Shown piece by piece: positions 39,861 to 49,221 of a stretch of 64,000 nt of DNA. The stretch spans positions 124,001 to 188,000 of the forward strand of contig NZ_QGEH01000004.1 of NCBI RefSeq assembly GCF_003258515.1, in the 5' to 3' direction. This DNA comes from Marinobacter bohaiensis. Its GTDB lineage: Bacteria > Pseudomonadota > Gammaproteobacteria > Pseudomonadales > Oleiphilaceae. Made by a program: the position numbers and the translations under genes. How positions within the stretch are numbered: position 1 is the first letter of the stretch; each line of letters begins with the position of its first letter. Below the pieces are notes generated by a model, which had not been told where the DNA came from, searched no databases, and saw only the letters and a program-made list of their open reading frames with translations.

Positions 39861-41504
39861 ATGCACAAGTCGTCGCCCATACCAGCCCGCTATACAGCCT
39901 ATGTGATATCGCTGCTTGGACTGGTGCTGACGTTACCGCTGGCCTGGCTCTATCCGTCCACCTTTTTCCTGCCCCTGATCTTCGGCCTGCTGGCCATCCT
40001 GGGCACCTACGACCTGCTCCAGCACCGCCACACGGTCAGCCGCAACTACCCGATCCTGGCCCACTTCCGCTACTTCCTGGAGTCGATCGGTCCGGAAATC
40101 CGCCAGTACTTCATCCAGCGGGATACCGAGGAGGTACCCTTCTCCCGGGAACAGCGCGCTATCGTCTACCAGCGCGCCAAGAATGTACTCGACAAGCGCC
40201 CGTTCGGCACCCAGCACGACACCTACGCCGAAGGCTACGAATGGATGAGCCACTCCATGGCGCCGGTGGACCACAAGGACAACGATTTTCGTATCCTGAT
40301 CGGCAAACACTGCAAGCAGCCCTACAGCGCCAGCATCTTCAATATATCCGCCATGAGCTTCGGCTCCCTGTCGGCCAACGCCATCGAGTCCCTCAACCAG
40401 GGGGCGAAGCTGGGTAATTTCTATCACGACACCGGGGAAGGCTCGATTTCCCGCTACCACACCAAACACGGCGGCGACCTGGTCTGGGAGATCGGTTCCG
40501 GTTACTTCGGCTGCCGCAACAGGGACGGCTCCTTCAACGAAGAGCTGTTCGTGCGGAACGCCACCCGTGACCAGGTACGGATGATCGAGATCAAACTGTC
40601 CCAGGGCGCCAAGCCGGGCCATGGCGGCATCCTGCCCGGCCCCAAGGTCACCCCGGAAATCGCCGAGGCCCGGGGCGTCACGCCCTGGGAAGACGTGGAA
40701 TCCCCGGCCCAGCACAGTGCCTTCAGCACCCCGCTGGAGTTGATGGATTTCATCGAGCGGCTGCGCGAGCTGTCCGGCGGCAAACCGGTGGGTTTCAAGC
40801 TGGCCCTGGGGCATCCGTGGGAATGGTTCGGCCTGGTCAAGGCCATGCTGGAAAGCGGCAAGCGTCCGGATTTCATCGTCGTGGACGGTGGCGAGGGCGG
40901 CACCGGCGCCGCGCCGCTGGAGTTCACCAACCGCCTGGGCATGCCGATGACCGAAGCGCTGCAACTGGTCCACAATGCGCTGGTCGGAGCGAATCTGCGC
41001 GAGGAAATCGCCATCGGGGCCGCCGGCAAGATCACCTCGGCCTTCAACATTGCGCGCACGCTTGCCCTGGGCGCCGATTGGTGCAACGCGGCCCGCGGTT
41101 TCATGTTTTCCCTGGGCTGTATTCAGGCGCAAAGCTGCCACAGTGACAAGTGCCCTTCCGGCGTCGCCACGCAGGACCCGCGCCGGGGCAGCAAGCTGGA
41201 CGTGGCGGACAAGAGCCAGCGGGTCTATCACTTCCACCGCAACACCATGCAGGCACTGACCAACCTGCTGGGCGCCTCCGGGCTCAAGCACCCGCGGGAG
41301 CTGGGGCCGGAGCACATCATCCGACGCGTGGACGAGAACGAAGTGCGGACCTACATGGAGCTGTTCCGCTTCCTGGAGCCCGGCGAACTGCTCAAGGGCT
41401 CTTCCGAACACACCGTGTTCGCCAAGTACTGGGACGCCTCCCGGGCGGACAGCTTCGAGCCGCCGGAATTCATCCGCAAATTACGCGAAACCAAGCTGCG
41501 CTGA
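39861..41504 (+). CDS. FMN-binding glutamate-synthase-like membrane protein
   Basis: A 547-aa protein with two N-terminal membrane segments (about 11-31 and 34-50) and a domain equal to the FMN/Fe-S synthase part of glutamate synthase large subunit. The TIM-barrel motifs are SAMSFGSLSANAIESLNQGA, GAKPGHGGILPG and DGGEGGTGAAP. The 3Fe-4S cluster ligands CIQAQSCHSDKC show the GltB spacing C-X5-C-X4-C. The glutaminase domain and the C-terminal GXGXG domain are absent, so it cannot make glutamate from glutamine by itself. Its role is unknown. It stands alone after thiQ and converges with the papain-like gene 23 nt away. Confidence 0.9.
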   Translation: MHKSSPIPARYTAYVISLLGLVLTLPLAWLYPSTFFLPLIFGLLAILGTYDLLQHRHTVSRNYPILAHFRYFLESIGPEIRQYFIQRDTEEVPFSREQRAIVYQRAKNVLDKRPFGTQHDTYAEGYEWMSHSMAPVDHKDNDFRILIGKHCKQPYSASIFNISAMSFGSLSANAIESLNQGAKLGNFYHDTGEGSISRYHTKHGGDLVWEIGSGYFGCRNRDGSFNEELFVRNATRDQVRMIEIKLSQGAKPGHGGILPGPKVTPEIAEARGVTPWEDVESPAQHSAFSTPLELMDFIERLRELSGGKPVGFKLALGHPWEWFGLVKAMLESGKRPDFIVVDGGEGGTGAAPLEFTNRLGMPMTEALQLVHNALVGANLREEIAIGAAGKITSAFNIARTLALGADWCNAARGFMFSLGCIQAQSCHSDKCPSGVATQDPRRGSKLDVADKSQRVYHFHRNTMQALTNLLGASGLKHPRELGPEHIIRRVDENEVRTYMELFRFLEPGELLKGSSEHTVFAKYWDASRADSFEPPEFIRKLRETKLR

Positions 41505-41527
41505 ACCGCCCCGTCCGGCGGGTATCG

Positions 41528-43561
41528 TCACTCGCCGGTCGAGGATTGTCCCTCGTCGGCCTGCAACTCCGCGGCGGGCAGGCGATCCTGCCCCCAGGTG
41601 CGATGGACCTGGTCCATCACCGCCTGCAGTTCTTCCGGCCGCACATCCGCCAGCGCGCCGTGTTCCAGTGGATCGTAATGGAAGATATAGAGCCGTGACG
41701 CGAACTCTCCGAACGGCAGCGACGACTCGCCGTGGCGCTCGTCGTGCCCGGAAGTACTGACCTTGATGCCATCGCCCCAGTCCTGGGCACTGTCGTTGTT
41801 GGGGTTGAAGAAGTACACCCGCATGGTCTGCTCGGGGTCGAGCCCCACACGCAGGATGGTGATGGCGTGCCAGCCAATGAACCGAGACGCACTATCGGTA
41901 ACCGCGATACCCGCCGGCTGGGGATGGATCAGCGGCTGGTTGCCGTTGTAGAAGGGATGGTAGCTGGCGTAGAAATGTCGCAGGAAATTGTCCAGGTCGA
42001 CCAACCGACCGGTGGCCACGTCCACATTGATGCTGAAACCGCGCCCGCACCACCAACCGTGAAATTCAGGGTTGATCCAACGATGCGGGTCGCCATCGCG
42101 ATCCGCGCACAGGCGCCCCATTTCCCCGTAGAGGCGGTCGAGGTGCGGCACCAGAATCAGCGACACCGCATCCAAGTCCAGGTGCAGCTCGCGGGCAACG
42201 CCACCGGCACTGGCCACCGAGGACACGGGTTTGCCCTCGAAATGCATGATGATCTCGTCGTCGCGGGCGGCCCAGACCAGCAGCTGCAACAGGAAATCCG
42301 GGTCCGTGTAGGCCCACATGGAAATAGCCCGCGCCGACTGACAGGTCGGGTTATTACCCTGCCCCACGCCCAGCGGGGCTCCCATCACACAGAGTACGCC
42401 TTCCAGCAGCCGCGTACGCGGTGAGGCCGAGTCCCCGAAAACCAGCGCCAGCTGCTCGCGAGTCGGCCGAGACAGAGGCAGGTTGACCTGACGCCAGAGC
42501 GCCGGACCCATGGCGGGGTTGTAAAGAATGCCCCGTTCCAGCATCAGCGCCAGTCCGTAGACCGACTGCGGCGTCTCGGGGGTGACTGCCTCCCGGATCA
42601 ACGCGTGCACCAGGTCGGTGTAACACAGCAGGCAGTCCCGGCCGGTGCTCGACAGCCCCAAAGCCTCCGACAGCAGCTGCTCGCCCTGATCCACGAGAAA
42701 ACGCAGCAGCTCGGCGTGGTAGGCGGACACCAGCCCGGTATCGTGCATGGCGCGGGCACAGCCCATGGCTTCCGCCTGCAAGCCGCGCTGGTCCATGGCC
42801 GCCAGCCGCTCGTGATAGACGTTGAGCCCCGGGTCCTCGCGACTGGCCTCGGTCGGCCCGAACAGACTGCTGATCAACCGATAGGCGCCCTGCCCGCTGG
42901 CGCCCAGTTCGATATCGGGGTCGCTGCTGCAGATGGCGATCTGGGTGATCATCTGTTTGACGGGCCCGGTCTGGATGGGGCGTTGATTGAGCAGGCGCCA
43001 TATCTCGGCGATAAGCTGGTCGATGACATGCTCGTAGCCGATCCGGTCCGCCAGATGCTGGACCAGCGCCCGCGAGACCCCGGCCAGACGCCCTTGGGTT
43101 TCACGCTCAGCCTCCCCGGCGCTGCCAAACAGCAACGCCAGGTTGATCGCCAGCACCTGGGCCAGAAAGTGGTGAGCCTGCTCCGAAGAGACATAGGGAT
43201 GGCAGTAGCGGCCGGTGGCAACCGCCAGCAACCGCAATTCACTGAGCGCTTCGAGCGCGACCGTATCCGCCGACGGGCTACGCAGGGACTGGGAGGTCAG
43301 CGTCGGGATCAGGATCTGGGGGTGAGCCCAGTCCGTTCCCTGGAAAACGCCGCTCTCCTCCAGTTCCTGCGCTCGCTCTTCAATCGCCTCACACCCGCCC
43401 GTCTGCATCAGGACCCGACGGGCCAGGTCAAAAACGAGATGCGCCTTACCCACCTTGGCAAAGGGTTTGGCCCGGGCCAGTTGGGCAACTGCATCATCCA
43501 GTTTGACCAGCAGCCCCTCAAGCTTCCCGGGGGCGGCCTGTTGGGCGTTGGAATAGTCCAC
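41528..43561 (-). CDS. Papain-like cysteine peptidase/transferase candidate, unknown family
   Basis: A 677-aa soluble protein with no signal peptide or membrane segment. Residues 1-380 are mostly helical. The C-terminal part shows a papain-type arrangement: GVGQGNNPTCQSARAI with Gln401 and Cys407, FIGWHAITILRVG with His565, and RVYFFNPNNDS with Asn586, i.e. oxyanion Gln, nucleophile Cys, His and Asn in the right order, within a beta-rich barrel. The assignment is by pattern only; I recognise no named family. GTG 43561 is chosen with AGGA upstream. It starts 33 nt after the ATP-grasp gene and is surely its operon partner. Confidence 0.6.
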   Translation of the reverse strand: MDYSNAQQAAPGKLEGLLVKLDDAVAQLARAKPFAKVGKAHLVFDLARRVLMQTGGCEAIEERAQELEESGVFQGTDWAHPQILIPTLTSQSLRSPSADTVALEALSELRLLAVATGRYCHPYVSSEQAHHFLAQVLAINLALLFGSAGEAERETQGRLAGVSRALVQHLADRIGYEHVIDQLIAEIWRLLNQRPIQTGPVKQMITQIAICSSDPDIELGASGQGAYRLISSLFGPTEASREDPGLNVYHERLAAMDQRGLQAEAMGCARAMHDTGLVSAYHAELLRFLVDQGEQLLSEALGLSSTGRDCLLCYTDLVHALIREAVTPETPQSVYGLALMLERGILYNPAMGPALWRQVNLPLSRPTREQLALVFGDSASPRTRLLEGVLCVMGAPLGVGQGNNPTCQSARAISMWAYTDPDFLLQLLVWAARDDEIIMHFEGKPVSSVASAGGVARELHLDLDAVSLILVPHLDRLYGEMGRLCADRDGDPHRWINPEFHGWWCGRGFSINVDVATGRLVDLDNFLRHFYASYHPFYNGNQPLIHPQPAGIAVTDSASRFIGWHAITILRVGLDPEQTMRVYFFNPNNDSAQDWGDGIKVSTSGHDERHGESSLPFGEFASRLYIFHYDPLEHGALADVRPEELQAVMDQVHRTWGQDRLPAAELQADEGQSSTGE

Positions 43562-43594
43562 GCGACATCCTCATGATCGTGCAATGCCGATAGG

Positions 43595-44836
43595 CTACAC
43601 GTAAAAGTCGAGCTCTTCCTGGTGTTTCAGCAAATCGCGCAGCTTGTGGGGATCGTCGCCCTTGAAGTAGAGCAGCCCCCAGTGGGTTCCGAATGCGGTC
43701 CGTTTGGTCACGGTATCCTGCATCGGCGGTGCCAGGTCGTTGGACTCGTAATACGGATGGTCCTCGGTTTCTTCCGGGATCTCCAGCCGGCTCACTACGC
43801 GCAGGCGCGGATAGACGCCGAAACAGCCCGCATAGCCCGAGGCATCGACCACTTCGCGGGGGAAGAAACGGGTGATTTCCTCTTCCGTGGTCTTGGGGTC
43901 GAAGGCCAGGATCATGCCCTGGTAGGCGTTGAAGCCATAGACCCGCTCCAGCAGCTCGAATACCTTGAAGCCCGGCGGGCGATAGGCCACCTCGCCAAAG
44001 TACATTTCGCTGTCGTTGGTGACGAAATACTCCGGGTGGAGAAAGCCGAACTCGATATCGAAGGCTTTGATCAGCTTCTCGATCTGCTCCCGGATCTGGG
44101 GCCGGTATTTTTCCAGCTCCGGCGAAGCCGGAACGAACACCGAATAGCCCAGGGTCACGTACTCGGAAATATTCAGAAAGCGGATCTTGCCGTTGTGAAT
44201 CCAGGCTTCCACCGCAAATTCCCAGCCATCCAGGTGGGATTCCATCAGGACCGGGAATTCCTCTTCGGGAATGGTATCCACTTCGTCCGGCGTGCGGATC
44301 ACCCGGTGCCCCAGGCAGCCGGCCTTGTCGAAGGCTTTGAGGTGGATCGGGTCGTTGGGGTCGCCGTCGAGCTTGAGTAGCGTCTGGTTTACGCGCTTCA
44401 GGAAGCGGATGACGTCGTCCCGGTCGTGGGCTTCCTCGAAGATACCCACGCGAATCCCGCCCAGCTGGGCGCGACGCTTCATCAGGGCCTTGTCCCGCAG
44501 GAGCATGGCCTGACCGAACAGTTTCGGTTTGTCCAACAGGACGGCGTTGATGGCCCCGGCCCACTCCACGGTTTCCTCGAACAGCGGAATGGCCACATTC
44601 ACTCCCATGTCCTTGAGGGTCTGGGCGATTTCCATGGAGCGATCGTTCAGGCGCTCAAAATTCCAGGGCACATAGGGAATGTTGTGCTCCTGGCAATAAC
44701 TCTCCGCCCATTCCGGCGCCACCACGACATAGCGCCGGTCAAACTGATCCGCAGCCTCGACCGCATTCAGACTCCAACCGAGCAAGGCGACATAGCCCTT
44801 GTCCGGATCATAGGAAGTATTCGCATCAGCTGACAT
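43595..44836 (-). CDS. ATP-grasp ligase, partner of the papain-like protein
   Basis: A 413-aa enzyme of the ATP-grasp superfamily (carboxylate-amine/thiol ligation). The N-terminal preATP-grasp region is ~1-110. RDKALMKRRAQLGGIRV (114-130) opens the ATP-grasp fold, and LKAFDKAGCLGHRV carries the nucleotide-loop Lys167. Next come MESHLDGWEFAVEAW and FGFLHPEYFV...YFGEVAYRPPGF, where Glu282 and Arg286 fit the metal/phosphate site. The last ~90 residues are a C-terminal cap. ATG 44836 follows AGGAGG. Closest in style to PylC/carbamoyl-phosphate-type ligases; the substrates are unknown. Confidence 0.82.
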   Translation of the reverse strand: MSADANTSYDPDKGYVALLGWSLNAVEAADQFDRRYVVVAPEWAESYCQEHNIPYVPWNFERLNDRSMEIAQTLKDMGVNVAIPLFEETVEWAGAINAVLLDKPKLFGQAMLLRDKALMKRRAQLGGIRVGIFEEAHDRDDVIRFLKRVNQTLLKLDGDPNDPIHLKAFDKAGCLGHRVIRTPDEVDTIPEEEFPVLMESHLDGWEFAVEAWIHNGKIRFLNISEYVTLGYSVFVPASPELEKYRPQIREQIEKLIKAFDIEFGFLHPEYFVTNDSEMYFGEVAYRPPGFKVFELLERVYGFNAYQGMILAFDPKTTEEEITRFFPREVVDASGYAGCFGVYPRLRVVSRLEIPEETEDHPYYESNDLAPPMQDTVTKRTAFGTHWGLLYFKGDDPHKLRDLLKHQEELDFYV

Positions 44837-44932
44837 ACCTCGTCCTCCTTTTCGGATCGTCGTCCTATAACCCTAGACCATGAGCGAGAGGATAAAAATC
44901 GACCAGCGGTTAAACATGCGAGAAAGGGAAAG

Positions 44933-44967
44933 CCGGACCGAAGAGCGCCTGCGGGCCTTCGGTCCGG
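44933..44967 (-). terminator. Terminator of the sugar ABC operon
   Basis: Eleven-base arms 44933-44943 and 44957-44967 with a 13-nt loop, just beyond the ATPase stop and before the ATP-grasp gene. It is followed on the minus strand by a pyrimidine run (CTTTCCCTTTCT), so termination is probable but not textbook. Confidence 0.6.
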
Positions 44968-44979
44968 AAAAGGCGGGGC

Positions 44980-46095
44980 TCAGACGTCGATGCGGGTCTC
45001 CTCGCCGGCCTCGAAATAGATGGCCCGGCTCAGGTCCACCATCAGTTCCGCGGGCTCGCCCGTTTCGATGGTGTGATCCGGGTCCAGCCGGCAGTGCACC
45101 TCGGTGTCGTTCATGCGGATCAACGCCATCACATCGGGCCCGGTCGGCTCGGTAACCTCGATCCGGAAACGGCCGGAGGTGGTCGCCGCCTGGTCCGCCT
45201 TGTGCGCCAGCGGCTGGGTGATGTGCTCCGGGCGAATCCCCAGATGGATCTCACGACCGGTGTACTCAGCCAGCTTCTCGGGCAGTGGCACCCGGGTTTC
45301 ATCGCCGTCGACACTGCGCAGGCTGGCCACCGGACGGCCGTTTTCGGTCTCTACCAGCAACGGGATGAAGCTCATCGCCGGAGAGCCGATGAAGCTCGCC
45401 ACGTAGCGGCAGGAGGGCTGCTCGTAGATTTCCTTGGGCGTGCCCAGCTGCAGCAGTTCGCCGTCCTTGATCACCGCGATGCGGTCGGCCAGGGTCATGG
45501 CCTCGATCTGGTCGTGGGTCACGTAGACGATGGTGGTGCCCAGACGCTGGTGCAGTCGCTTGATTTCGGTGCGCATTTCCACCCGCAGCTTGGCATCCAG
45601 GTTCGACAGGGGTTCGTCGAACAGATAGATCTTGGGCCGACGCGCCAGAGCCCGCCCCATCGCGACCCGCTGCTGCTGGCCGCCGGACAGTTGCGACGGT
45701 TTGCGATCCAGCAGGTTCTCGATCTGCAACAGCGTAGCGACCCGCTGGACTTCCGCGTCGATCTCGTCCTTGGGCATGCGACGGATTTTCAGACCGAAAG
45801 CAATGTTCTCACGCACCGACATGGTGGGATACAGCGCGTAGGACTGGAACACCATGGCGATGTCCCGGTCCTTGGGCTCGGCGTGGGTGACGTCCTTGCC
45901 ATCGATCATGATGTGGCCCTGGGTGACGGTTTCCAGACCGGCAATGCTGTTCATCAGCGTGGACTTACCGCAGCCGGACGGCCCCACCAGGATCAGGAAT
46001 TCACCGGAATCGATGTCGATATCAATACCTTTCAGGGTTTCCTGGGCGGCGTTGCCGTAGGTCTTGCGGATACCCTTGAGTTGTAATTGTGCCAT
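44980..46095 (-). CDS. gtsD: Sugar ABC transporter, ATP-binding protein (MalK/UgpC type)
   Basis: ATPase energising import of a sugar, probably glucose. The 371-aa protein has the ABC domain (Walker [10 protein letters not shown], signature LSGGQQQR, Walker B IYLFDEP, switch His in YVTHD) and a C-terminal TOBE regulatory domain (~240-365) of the MalK kind. It is the last gene of the importer operon, 9 nt after the second permease. The symbol follows the Pseudomonas glucose importer and rests on synteny. Confidence 0.88.
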
Positions 46096-46104
46096 TGTGG
46101 ACCT

Positions 46105-46974
46105 CTAACCTTTTACAGCGCCGGACGTCAGTCCGCGAATGAAATACTTGCCGGCCAGCACGTAGACGACGAGCGTGGGCAGCGCGGCGATCATGGCGGC
46201 GGCCATGTCCACGTTGTACTCCTTCACGCCAGTGCTGGTGTTGACCAGATTGTTCAGGCCGACCGTAATCGGCTGGCTGTCACCGCTGGCGAACACCACG
46301 CCGAACAGGAAGTCGTTCCAGATCTGGGTGAACTGCCAGATGAAACACACCATGAACGTCGGTACGGACATGGGCAGCAGGATCTTGACGAAAATGGTCA
46401 CGAATCCGGCGCCATCCAGTCGCGCGGCTTTGATCAGAGCGTCCGGGACGGCCACATAGAAATTGCGGAAGAACAGTGTGGTAAAGGCAATGCCGTAGAC
46501 CACATGGACCAGCACCAGCCCCGGGGTGGTGTTGGCCAGTCCCAGTTTGCCCAGAACGCCGGCCATCGGCAGCAGGATCACCTGGAACGGCAGAAAGCAG
46601 CCGAAAAGCAGCAAGCTGAAGAAGATGTCGGAGCCCCGAAAACGCCACTTGGAAAACACATAGCCGTTGATCGCCCCCAGGAAGGTGGAGATCATCACGG
46701 CCGGAACGGCCATCTTCAGGGAGTTCCAGAAGAAACCGTGGACGCCGTTACACTCGACGCCGGTACAGGCACTGGACCAGGCCTTGGCCCAGGCATCCAG
46801 CGTCCAGGTTTCCGGCAGGCTCATCAGATTGCCGGTGCGGATGTCGCCGGTGGTCTTGAAACTGGTCACCAGCATGATGAAAACCGGGATCAGGTAGGCG
46901 ATACAGGCCAGCAACAGCGTACCGTAAACCAACAGACGCCCGGTGCTCAGGGAATTGCGTACTGAATTAGCCAT
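46105..46974 (-). CDS. gtsC: Sugar ABC transporter permease (MalG type)
   Basis: A 289-aa inner-membrane permease with six membrane segments. The EAA loop reads VAVPDALIKAARLDGAGFVTIFVKILLPMS, and the closing segment ends VLAGKYFIRGLTSGAVKG as in MalG-like subunits. It overlaps the other permease gene by 8 nt and lies 9 nt before the ATPase. The periplasmic loop holds CTGVECNG, a possible disulfide. Confidence 0.9.
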   Translation of the reverse strand: MANSVRNSLSTGRLLVYGTLLLACIAYLIPVFIMLVTSFKTTGDIRTGNLMSLPETWTLDAWAKAWSSACTGVECNGVHGFFWNSLKMAVPAVMISTFLGAINGYVFSKWRFRGSDIFFSLLLFGCFLPFQVILLPMAGVLGKLGLANTTPGLVLVHVVYGIAFTTLFFRNFYVAVPDALIKAARLDGAGFVTIFVKILLPMSVPTFMVCFIWQFTQIWNDFLFGVVFASGDSQPITVGLNNLVNTSTGVKEYNVDMAAAMIAALPTLVVYVLAGKYFIRGLTSGAVKG

Positions 46975-47896
46975 TGCGCTGCCCCCTCAGTTCCGAATAC
47001 AGGTACGGCACCAGGATGGCGAGCAGCATAGCCAGCATCATCATCGCACTGGCCGCACCCAGGCCCATCTGACCGCGGGTGAAAGTGAAGGCATACATGA
47101 ACAGGGCCGGCAGGTCGGACGAATAGCCCGGGCCGCCTGCGGTCATGGCCGTAACCAGGTCGAAGCTCTTGATGGCGATGTGCGCCAGCACCATCACCGA
47201 GCTGAAGAAAACCGGGCGCATGGCCGGCAGCACGATGCGCAGATAAATGCGCGGCAGGCTCGCGCCGTCCACCCGGGCGGCGTTGATGATGGAGCCGTCG
47301 ATGCCCCGCAGTCCCGCCAGGAACAGCGCCATCACGAAGCCGGAGGCCTGCCACACGGCGGCAATCACGATGGTGTAGATCACCATGTCGGGATCGGTCA
47401 GCCAATCGAACTTGAAGCTGGTCCAGCCCCAGTCGTGCATCAGTTTTTCCAGCCCCAGGCTAGGGTTGAGAATCCACTGCCAGACCGCACCGGTGACGAT
47501 CATCGACAGGGCCATGGGATAGAGATAGATCGTGCGGATCACGCCTTCGTTGCGGATACGCTGGTCCAGCAGGATCGCCAGGAAGCAGCCAATCGCCAGG
47601 CAGGACACGATGAACAGCACACCAAAAATGACCAGGTTGGTGCAGGCTGTCACCCAGCGATCGTTGGCGAACAGTTTGGCGTACTGTTCAAAGCCCACGA
47701 ACTCGTAGCTGGGCAGAAAGGTGGACCCGGTCAGCGACAGCACGCCGGTCCAGATCATGAATCCGTAGATACCCACCAGCGCCATCACGGCCGTCGGCGC
47801 AAGCGCCAGTTTGGGAAGCCAGTGTTGCAAATGCTGGGTCAGACGGACACGGGGACGCTGTGGCGTCGCCTCGGACGCCGCACCGATGTGAGCCAT
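46967..47896 (-). CDS. gtsB: Sugar ABC transporter permease (MalF type)
   Basis: A 309-aa permease with six membrane segments after a short cytoplasmic N-terminus. The EAA loop is LRGIDGSIINAARVDGASLPRIYLRIVLP. It pairs with the MalG-type subunit that it overlaps by 8 nt. An intercistronic hairpin separates it from the binding-protein gene, so its expression may be lower. Confidence 0.9.
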   Translation of the reverse strand: MAHIGAASEATPQRPRVRLTQHLQHWLPKLALAPTAVMALVGIYGFMIWTGVLSLTGSTFLPSYEFVGFEQYAKLFANDRWVTACTNLVIFGVLFIVSCLAIGCFLAILLDQRIRNEGVIRTIYLYPMALSMIVTGAVWQWILNPSLGLEKLMHDWGWTSFKFDWLTDPDMVIYTIVIAAVWQASGFVMALFLAGLRGIDGSIINAARVDGASLPRIYLRIVLPAMRPVFFSSVMVLAHIAIKSFDLVTAMTAGGPGYSSDLPALFMYAFTFTRGQMGLGAASAMMMLAMLLAILVPYLYSELRGQRNG

Positions 47897-47925
47897 CTTG
47901 AGAACTCCTAAACCGTTATCGGTTG

Positions 47926-47950
47926 GCGGGCGGGGCCAGGCCCCACCCGC
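47926..47950 (-). repeat. Intercistronic hairpin between the binding-protein and permease genes
   Basis: Ten-base arms 47926-47935 and 47941-47950 (one C-A mismatch), 5-nt loop, no U tract. In binding-protein operons such hairpins often protect the upstream mRNA from 3' decay and reduce permease expression. Confidence 0.7.
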
Positions 47951-47970
47951 TCAGACATGAAGTGACAGGA

Positions 47971-49221
47971 TCAAAGAGCGGACTGGACCGCGGATGCCAG
48001 ACGCTCGGCCGTTTCTTCCGGGTCCGCATCGGCGCGATTGAAGAAGTTGGTGACGACGTCGAAGATCTGGCCCTGTACGGCACTGGTGGTGGACATGCCA
48101 TGCGCCATGCTGGGCACCAGACCACCGGTGTCGGAAGTCTTCTTGAACGCATCCATGGAGGCCTGCGCGCAGTCGTCGAAGCCGGACATGTCGATGTCGG
48201 TACGGACGGGGATGGAACCCTTGGCCTTGTTGAAGACGGTCTGGAACTCAGGCTCCAGAATGGTCCGGGCCAGGTCTTTCTGGGCCTTCTCGTTGTCCGC
48301 GTCACTCAGCTTGAACATCGCCAGGGAGTCGATATTGAAGGTGAAGGAGCCCTGGGTACCGGGTGCCGGAACGCACAGGTAGTCCTCGCCGGCCACCTTG
48401 TCGGCGGCGGTGAACTCGCCTTTGGCCCAGTCGCCCATGATCTGCATGGCGGCGTCGCCGTTGATGACCATCTGGGTAGCGACGTTCCAGTCACGACCAA
48501 CCGCGTTCGGGTCGATGTAATCGCGAATCTTGTGGAACTTGGTCAGGGCTTCGACCATTTTGGGGCCGGACAGAACGTCCATATCGTGATTCACGAAAGC
48601 GGCCCGGTAGTCCTCGGGACCCAGCTCGGCCAGGGCGATGGCCTCGAACACGGTGGCGTCCTGCCAGGCCTGACCACCATGAGCCAGCGGGATCACACCG
48701 GCGGCCTTGAGCTTGTCGGCCACGGCGAAGAACTCATCCAGCGTGGTGGGCACCTCCACGCCGACCTTCTCGAACACGTCCGGATTGACCCAAAGCCAGT
48801 TGACGCGATGCACGTTGACCGGCACCGCCACATAGTCGCCCTCGTATTTCATCGTATCGGAGACCACCGGCGGCAGAACCTGGCCCCAGTTCGCTTTCTC
48901 TGCCACGTCGTCCAGGCTGGTCAGAAAACCAAGCTTGGCCCACTCCTGGATGTCCAGCCCCTTGATCTGGGCGGCTGCGGGTGGGTTGCCGGATACAGCG
49001 CGGGTCTTGAGGACCGTCATGGCCGCCTCGCCACCGCCGCCAGCCACAGCGAAATCTTTCCAGGTATGCCCCTGGTCTTCCATCATTTCCTTGAGGACAC
49101 CCATGGCCTTGGCTTCGCCGCCGGAGGTCCACCAGTGCAAGACTTCGACCTCGCCGGCGTGGGCCGGGGTCAGTGCAACACTCAGGCCGAGAGCGGCCAG
49201 AAAATGCCTGATCGGTTTCAT
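47971..49221 (-). CDS. gtsA: Sugar ABC transporter, substrate-binding protein (glucose-type)
   Basis: Periplasmic binding protein of family 1 that delivers sugar to the permeases. The 416-aa sequence has a signal peptide (about 1-22, cleavage after AHA) and the cluster pattern [15 protein letters not shown] near the N-terminus, [14 protein letters not shown] and GDWAKGEF. It resembles the GtsA glucose-binding proteins of Pseudomonas, and the adjoining GltR-type two-component system supports glucose. It is the first gene of the operon and sits behind a palindromic operator-like site. Confidence 0.9.

Follow-up and report, generated by a model that had tools for sequence, protein, structure and literature searches.

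What does a bacterium do with an ATP-grasp ligase whose gene is followed, on the same strand, by the gene of a 677-residue protein without any recognised family? The question is raised by a 64,000-nt stretch of the genome of Marinobacter bohaiensis (contig NZ_QGEH01000004.1, positions 124,001 to 188,000), which we call the window, and which was described in an earlier note as carrying a two-gene operon whose products might build and trim a peptide or an amide-linked metabolite. We find that this gene pair is real, widespread and, as far as we have searched, uncharacterised, and that its two products probably act together on one small molecule or protein tag; the pair thereby poses the question of which amide the ligase makes, and what its partner, a probable cysteine enzyme, does with it. 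The features of the locus, in the order of transcription, are the following.

43595-44836, minus strand: gene of the ATP-grasp ligase (type I, 413 aa), an open reading frame (ORF) with an ATG start and an AAGGAGG site before the start.
43562-43594, minus strand: intergenic gap of 33 nt, with the GAGG ribosome-site of the second gene.
41528-43561, minus strand: gene of the 677-aa protein (type I of its uncharacterised family), an ORF with a GTG start and GAGG before the start.
42431-43561, minus strand: N-terminal helical region of the 677-aa protein, residues 1-377, with helices only in the AlphaFold2 (AF2) model.
41597-42430, minus strand: C-terminal probable cysteine-enzyme region of the same protein, residues 378-655, with Q401, C407, H565 and N586, as seen in an alignment of 19 sequences and in the predicted secondary structure.

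The layout is as had been described, with the ligase gene upstream, 33 nt from its stop to the start of the second gene, and a ribosome site before each; the strand, which the earlier note did not give, is minus. All seven residues that had been singled out (K167, E282 and R286 in the ligase; Q401, C407, H565 and N586 in its partner) are found at their positions, and the claimed absence of signal peptides agrees with the N-termini, which are not hydrophobic in either protein (best 15-residue hydropathy means of 1.1 and 0.85 for windows starting at residues 1-30). Sequence comparison with the copies in M. halodurans (locus L002; L and G numbers are our handles for loci and genomes) gives nonsynonymous over synonymous divergences (dN/dS) of about 0.032/0.82 for the ligase and 0.10/1.05 for the 677-aa protein, so both genes are under strong purifying selection. 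Because of these low values, and because relatives of the 677-aa protein are encoded at 583 loci or more in one genome collection, we regard both as real genes. A promoter and terminator scan of the region of the pair returned nothing above shuffles; two terminator-like sites lie within 41400-45300, both on the opposite strand.

The association of the two genes goes far beyond the window. The best 80 of the at least 583 loci were kept for the analysis of gene order, and in 76 of them (one of which, L026, is cut by a contig end) the ligase gene is located just upstream on the same strand, with 10-254 nt between the match ends; the other four, L023, L062, L074 and L081, have no adjacent upstream ligase. 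In a sample of the phylum the 677-aa protein was found in 11 of 398 genomes, spanning 7 genera, and the same 11 carry a ligase scoring at least 788 bits, with a weak ligase match of 33 bits in one further genome. In a sample of the class it was found in 5 of 185 genomes, the same five carrying a ligase of at least 758 bits, and 13 other genomes showed weak ATP-grasp matches of at most 63.5 bits. Among 41 Marinobacter genomes, 36 possess both proteins and the same five (G584, G590, G591, G607 and G609) possess neither; G609 is 62% complete and the other four are 99-100% complete. Another class yielded the 677-aa protein in 3 of 240 genomes, each time as a ligase-first tandem, and a sample of the window's own genus that was searched for the 677-aa protein alone yielded it in six genomes out of six. 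A full-length ligase is encoded in all 54 distinct genomes with the 677-aa protein that were checked (52 by whole-genome search and two by the fetched region only), and in 15/15 genomes of one checked set, including four without an adjacent ligase. Since the sampled genomes have both proteins or neither, we think that the two probably work together; the functional pairing anticipated in the earlier note is thus supported by homologue searches and co-occurrence counts that pointed to the same genomes in three samples. The 677-aa protein represents a family of hundreds, without a curated family in the libraries searched, that is tied to one subfamily of ATP-grasp ligases.

The upstream gene encodes an enzyme of the ATP-grasp type, which in modelled fold and over part of its sequence comes closest to the amino acid ligases. 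The Pfam match of the window's ligase to ATP-grasp_4 reaches 24.3 bits, under the curated cut-off of 27; the same family is matched by 16/16 ligase relatives at E<=0.01, with LAL_C2 matched in 1/16. K167, E282 and R286, which we take to be the conserved ATP/metal residues of ATP-grasp enzymes, are invariant in alignments of 16 and 38 sequences, the latter made up of the window's ligase and those from 37 of the 80 retained loci. A Foldseek search with a structural model that is itself weak (mean predicted local distance difference test score, pLDDT, of 55.6) retrieved 195 PDB chains at E<=0.001 with a top probability of 1.0, and the 50 matches listed are, by title, presumably all ATP-grasp enzymes. 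At the top stand the L-amino acid ligases RizA (4wd3) and BL00235 (3vot), then YwfE/BacD (3wo1, 3vmm); biotin carboxylase, PurK-like and other ATP-grasp enzymes come after them. A profile search of the PDB at E<=0.1 gave just two matches, to BL00235 (E 0.006) and to RizA (E 0.021), in a segment that spans about residues 192-306 of the ligase and includes the E-x-x-x-R motif. The ATP-grasp assignment of the earlier note is supported by these matches and extended towards the L-amino acid ligases, within what a weak model allows.

The 677-aa protein is a different case, and the earlier statement that it belongs to no recognised family holds for the libraries and for the PDB. It has no Pfam match above the cut-off (the best is DUF7322, E 0.07); NCBIfam, PHROGs and PADLOC give no match either, and sequence and profile searches of the PDB turned up no credible relative. 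A profile of ten diverse copies matches only designed helical proteins (E 0.018 and 0.13); a profile of the C-terminal part matches nothing in the PDB at E<=10 and, against Pfam, gives three weak matches in single members only, the best at E 0.03. The AF2 model (mean pLDDT 76.4) shows helices only until the first strand at residue 438, in keeping with the helical N-terminal part of about 380 residues noted before. In the open-licence literature, no paper recognisable as dealing with this pair stood among the titles and abstract starts of the matches listed.

Is the C-terminal part papain-like, as had been proposed from the order of four residues? Q401, C407, H565 and N586 are invariant in partly overlapping alignments of 78, 10 and 19 sequences, whose most distant members are 42% identical to the window protein (L066, with a stop in its translation, was left out, and L051 and L054 are absent from the alignment of 78; 125 distinct stop-free sequences had been kept in one collection step). 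Such invariance is weak evidence alone, because 77/278 C-terminal positions are invariant among the 19 sequences, but C407 is the sole invariant Cys in that part. Gln, Cys, His and Asn follow one another as in clan CA, with Gln401 six residues before Cys407. Cys407 is located near the start of a predicted helix (405-416), in a segment where pLDDT falls below 50 (residues 396-419), His565 lies within a predicted strand (561-574) and Asn586 just after another (580-585). The succession of these residues, taken with the predicted secondary structure, is suggestive of a papain-like fold, and we regard the 677-aa protein as a probable cysteine enzyme whose residues stand in papain-like order.

Amide-bond formation by ATP-grasp ligases proceeds via an acyl phosphate, and Cys-His-Asn enzymes work through an acyl-enzyme. 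We propose, giving the idea an even chance, that the pair is a cytosolic two-enzyme amide-bond module, in which an amide formed by the ligase is then either hydrolysed or transferred by the cysteine enzyme. The ligase would activate as an acyl phosphate some small carboxylate, in all likelihood that of an amino acid or a short peptide, and join it to an amine; the 677-aa protein would use Cys407, with His565, Asn586 and an oxyanion site at Gln401, to form an acyl-enzyme from the ligase product; the acyl-enzyme would then be hydrolysed, or its acyl group passed to another acceptor, and the large helical N-terminal part may recognise the substrate or a partner. We infer this chemistry, and the action of both enzymes on the same amide bond, as the earlier note did for the building and trimming of a peptide.

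Several observations have to be set against this proposal, and those on the fold come first. A Foldseek search with the whole 677-aa model, which is dominated by the helical part, found nothing at E<=0.001 in the PDB (Staphopain C appears at rank 32 with a probability of 0.15), and nothing significant among viral models. In hhalign the C-terminal part matches DUF3335 at 0.9% and C39_2 at 0.2%, where decoys reach 0.1-2.1%, whereas the two papain-like families, the only ones compared by profile, match each other at 98.6%; the controls comprised 38 decoy families and reversed profiles. When short blocks were aligned by hhalign, neither the Cys nor the His/Asn block beat the decoys (ranks 32, 39, 13 and 19 of 43), and three of the four block alignments are in the catalytic register, as determined by hand from the positions. 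A block rank test, chosen after the outcome of block hhalign had been seen, is only partly supportive of papain likeness: whichever of the four widths is used, the Asn586 block comes first of 278 when compared with the catalytic Asp block of DUF3335, and His565 ranks 18-32 of 278 against DUF3335 and 4-7 against C39_2, but the Cys407 block, with ranks of 24-52 and 92-117 of 278, respectively, is not outstanding; in C39_2, moreover, Gln stands five, not six, residues before Cys. The papain-like assignment of the earlier note is thus tentative: the order of residues and of predicted secondary structure favours it, but no significant papain-like relative appeared in either Foldseek or hhalign.

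The remaining points concern the pair. The model of the ligase is poor, with its mean pLDDT of 55.6, and its sequence match to L-amino acid ligases extends over no more than about 115 residues, at E 0.006. Genomes within a sample are related, so that joint presence in them cannot be counted as independent events, and no neighbouring gene names a substrate. Finally, 677-aa copies exceed ligases in the 36 Marinobacter genomes, where we count 73 near-full-length copies of the former (one of them, in G588, interrupted) and 49 of the latter; therefore a strict one-to-one pair that makes and trims is not the rule, and the surplus is more easily understood if one product has several uses than if the two enzymes run a simple one-to-one cycle. 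The earlier note had named two findings that would speak against its reading, homologues away from the ligase gene and homologues lacking the residues: the former do occur, as 33 of the 73 Marinobacter copies have no neighbouring ligase (a full-length ligase is encoded in each of the 36 genomes), and the latter were not seen among the aligned sequences.

It is conceivable, though rather unlikely, that the papain order is coincidental and that the 677-aa protein has a different cysteine-enzyme fold or is no enzyme at all, serving e.g. as a partner or regulator of the ligase. Such a view would fit the structural and profile comparisons, in which no papain-like protein gave a significant match, as well as the 77/278 invariant positions that make the four residues weak evidence alone; the order itself, the Gln-Cys spacing of six, the sole invariant C-terminal Cys, its location near a predicted helix start, the placing of His and Asn within or just behind consecutive strands, and the resemblance of the Asn586 block to the Asp block of DUF3335 all argue against it. 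If papain-like, the family would be a divergent branch of the superfamily; if not, a cysteine enzyme of other fold.

The relation of the two genes becomes clearer when subtypes are distinguished. Trees of 40 loci, which provided 30 ligases and 34 partners (those of L137 and L165 were dropped because of stops or short matches), separate ligases of type II (9 rows), which by eye carry an N-terminal extension, from those of type I, and divide the 677-aa proteins into several clades. Four linked arrangements exist, namely the ligase-first tandem, divergent, convergent and second-protein-first tandem; other copies are unlinked. Type I is the ligase-first tandem, type II ligases in Marinobacter are, where linked, divergent from their partner, the 677-aa partner comes first in the tandems of L165 and L168, and the genes of L135 are convergent. 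The 49 Marinobacter ligases comprise 30 of type I and 19 of type II. Type I ligase is missing in 6/36 genomes (G583, G592, G598, G602, G606 and G616), all of which have a type II ligase and retain a type I partner, 65-68% identical to the window protein, and in three of them (G583, G592 and G602) relics of the type I ligase persist beside that partner. In G598 and G616 the single near-full-length partner is of type I and the single ligase of type II, and next to that ligase lies the relic of a partner. Outside Marinobacter, L081 preserves a relic of the last residues of the ligase, and a full-length ligase is encoded elsewhere in the genome. This decay has the look of a reciprocal loss between two pairs whose ligase subtypes would be able to replace each other, as one shared pathway predicts; the loss of ligase I where II is kept, and of the partner beside II where partner I is kept, would amount to natural experiments on interchangeability. 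A separate case is G612, where the type I 677-aa gene, next to a ligase that is intact, is broken into two frames (G612:C1:3635092-3637016) and two further near-full-length copies are present.

The multiplicity of partners (up to five near-full-length copies per genome, in G247) also bears on two other explanations. According to one of them, modelled on RimK-like and Pup-like logic, the ligase adds an amino acid or a short tail to a cellular protein, and the 677-aa enzyme recognises the tagged protein by means of its helical part and takes the tail off again. G606, with one ligase and four different 677-aa proteins, fits one writer with several target-specific erasers, and a faint link to the ribosome is provided by a TlyA-like gene, recognised by eye, which lies on the same strand at most 179 nt downstream of the 677-aa gene in 34/77 loci and in three of them overlaps it by 4 nt. 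All 34 loci, including L023, L074 and L081, belong to Halomonas and named kin; a search with one TlyA-like protein found none in the window or in the Marinobacter loci L002, L044, L055, L068 and L071, and the nearest solved relatives of the ligase, to our knowledge, join free amino acids, not proteins. We consider tagging and untagging of proteins unlikely.

Distinctly unlikely, too, is a variant of the amide-bond module in which one ligase makes one activated or amide-linked block and 677-aa cysteine transferases with differing helical parts pass it to different acceptors. If true, marine and halophilic bacteria would have a modular system of conjugation that has not been described before, centred on a new family of papain-like or papain-analogous enzymes.

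An osmolyte or storage dipeptide cycle, in which the ligase makes a dipeptide-like solute that its partner degrades when salt falls, is improbable. The kinship of the ligase with L-amino acid ligases is compatible with it, and most relatives' records, among the matches listed, name Halomonas, Vreelandella, Billgrantia, Chromohalobacter or Marinobacter, which we assume to be halophiles; against this stand the five of 41 Marinobacter genomes that lack both genes, four of them 99-100% complete, and the absence, by eye, of a transporter or osmotic-control neighbour common across the loci. No third gene common to the loci was found.

A polyamine conjugate cycle, as in glutathionylspermidine synthetase and amidase, is highly improbable. 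It is brought to mind by a ligase-less subclade of the 677-aa protein that adjoins, by eye, genes of a polyamine-type ATP-binding cassette (ABC) transporter in 5/50 tabulated loci, all from Marinobacter (L130:7983-14158, L132:4041-9967, L202, L203 and L205); in L132 the paralogue begins a few bases after the last permease. However, a gene on the opposite strand intervenes in three of the five loci, these copies have no neighbouring ligase, and no CHAP or glutathionylspermidine synthetase domain is matched in the window proteins. The probability of a defence or toxin-antitoxin module, which the tight pairing of the genes might evoke, is negligible, and a defence, phage or plasmid origin was rejected on the library, phage/viral and plasmid searches: there is no PADLOC or PHROGs match and no 677-aa relative in phage or viral collections, the one match among 72,556 plasmid records is on a 1.83-Mb replicon, and the genes survive unlinked.

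How does the proposed amide-bond module compare with known systems? The L-amino acid ligases RizA, BL00235 and YwfE/BacD are the best fold matches of the ligase at only 12-16% identity in the structural alignment, and we know of no such cysteine-enzyme partner for them. Anbu gene clusters combine an ATP-grasp gene with a transglutaminase-like one and the proteasome-like Anbu gene; none of the latter was recognised by eye in the neighbour lists, and no profile search for Anbu was made. BtrJ and BtrH act in one pathway, the biosynthesis of butirosin, and glutathionylspermidine synthetase and amidase are fused. Excerpts of the literature describe BtrJ as an ATP-grasp enzyme (PMC4431377) and the fold of BtrH as papain-like (PMC2922099, PMC10318531). 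The likeness consists in an ATP-grasp ligase and a papain-like acyltransferase serving one pathway; the difference is that there is no BtrH_N Pfam match here and that no carrier protein or antibiotic genes were recognised by eye among the neighbours. In glutathionylspermidine metabolism an ATP-grasp synthetase and a papain-like amidase share one amide bond (PMC10318531, in part); the pair described here, in contrast, is encoded by two genes, matches neither CHAP nor the synthetase, and has a large helical N-terminal part. DUF3335 (PF11814) is presented, in an excerpt of the same source, as a papain-like family often fused to GNAT domains that may act as peptide ligases (PMC10318531, citing Iyer et al. 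2009). It resembles the 677-aa protein as a papain-like partner of possibly amide-forming enzymes, in Gln six residues before Cys and in the Asp block that is like the Asn586 block, but differs in that the 677-aa protein has no Pfam match to PF11814 and reaches only 0.9% in hhalign. By these comparisons the pair would work like known pairs of ATP-grasp (amidoligase) and papain-like enzymes, and the tests made assign it to none of them. The window's genome also encodes a separate DUF3335 papain-like gene (G000:C1:2740451-2741068, L277), and such a gene is present in 20/38 sampled genomes, the window's own included.

Three further neighbourhoods may be recorded. Convergent with the 677-aa gene in the window, with 23 nt between the ORF ends, is a GltB-like gene with a Glu_synthase domain (39861-41504, plus strand), which has a counterpart in M. 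halodurans (L002, 82.5%) and no match in the other 79 loci. At L127:6494-10024 a 677-aa paralogue is located just downstream of a gene, divided between two frames, that by eye looks like one for a leucyl aminopeptidase. Upstream of the pair in the window, on the same strand, lie sugar-type ABC transporter-like genes (44980-49221, minus strand), comprising a UgpC-like ATPase identified by family search and two permeases and a binding protein recognised by eye.

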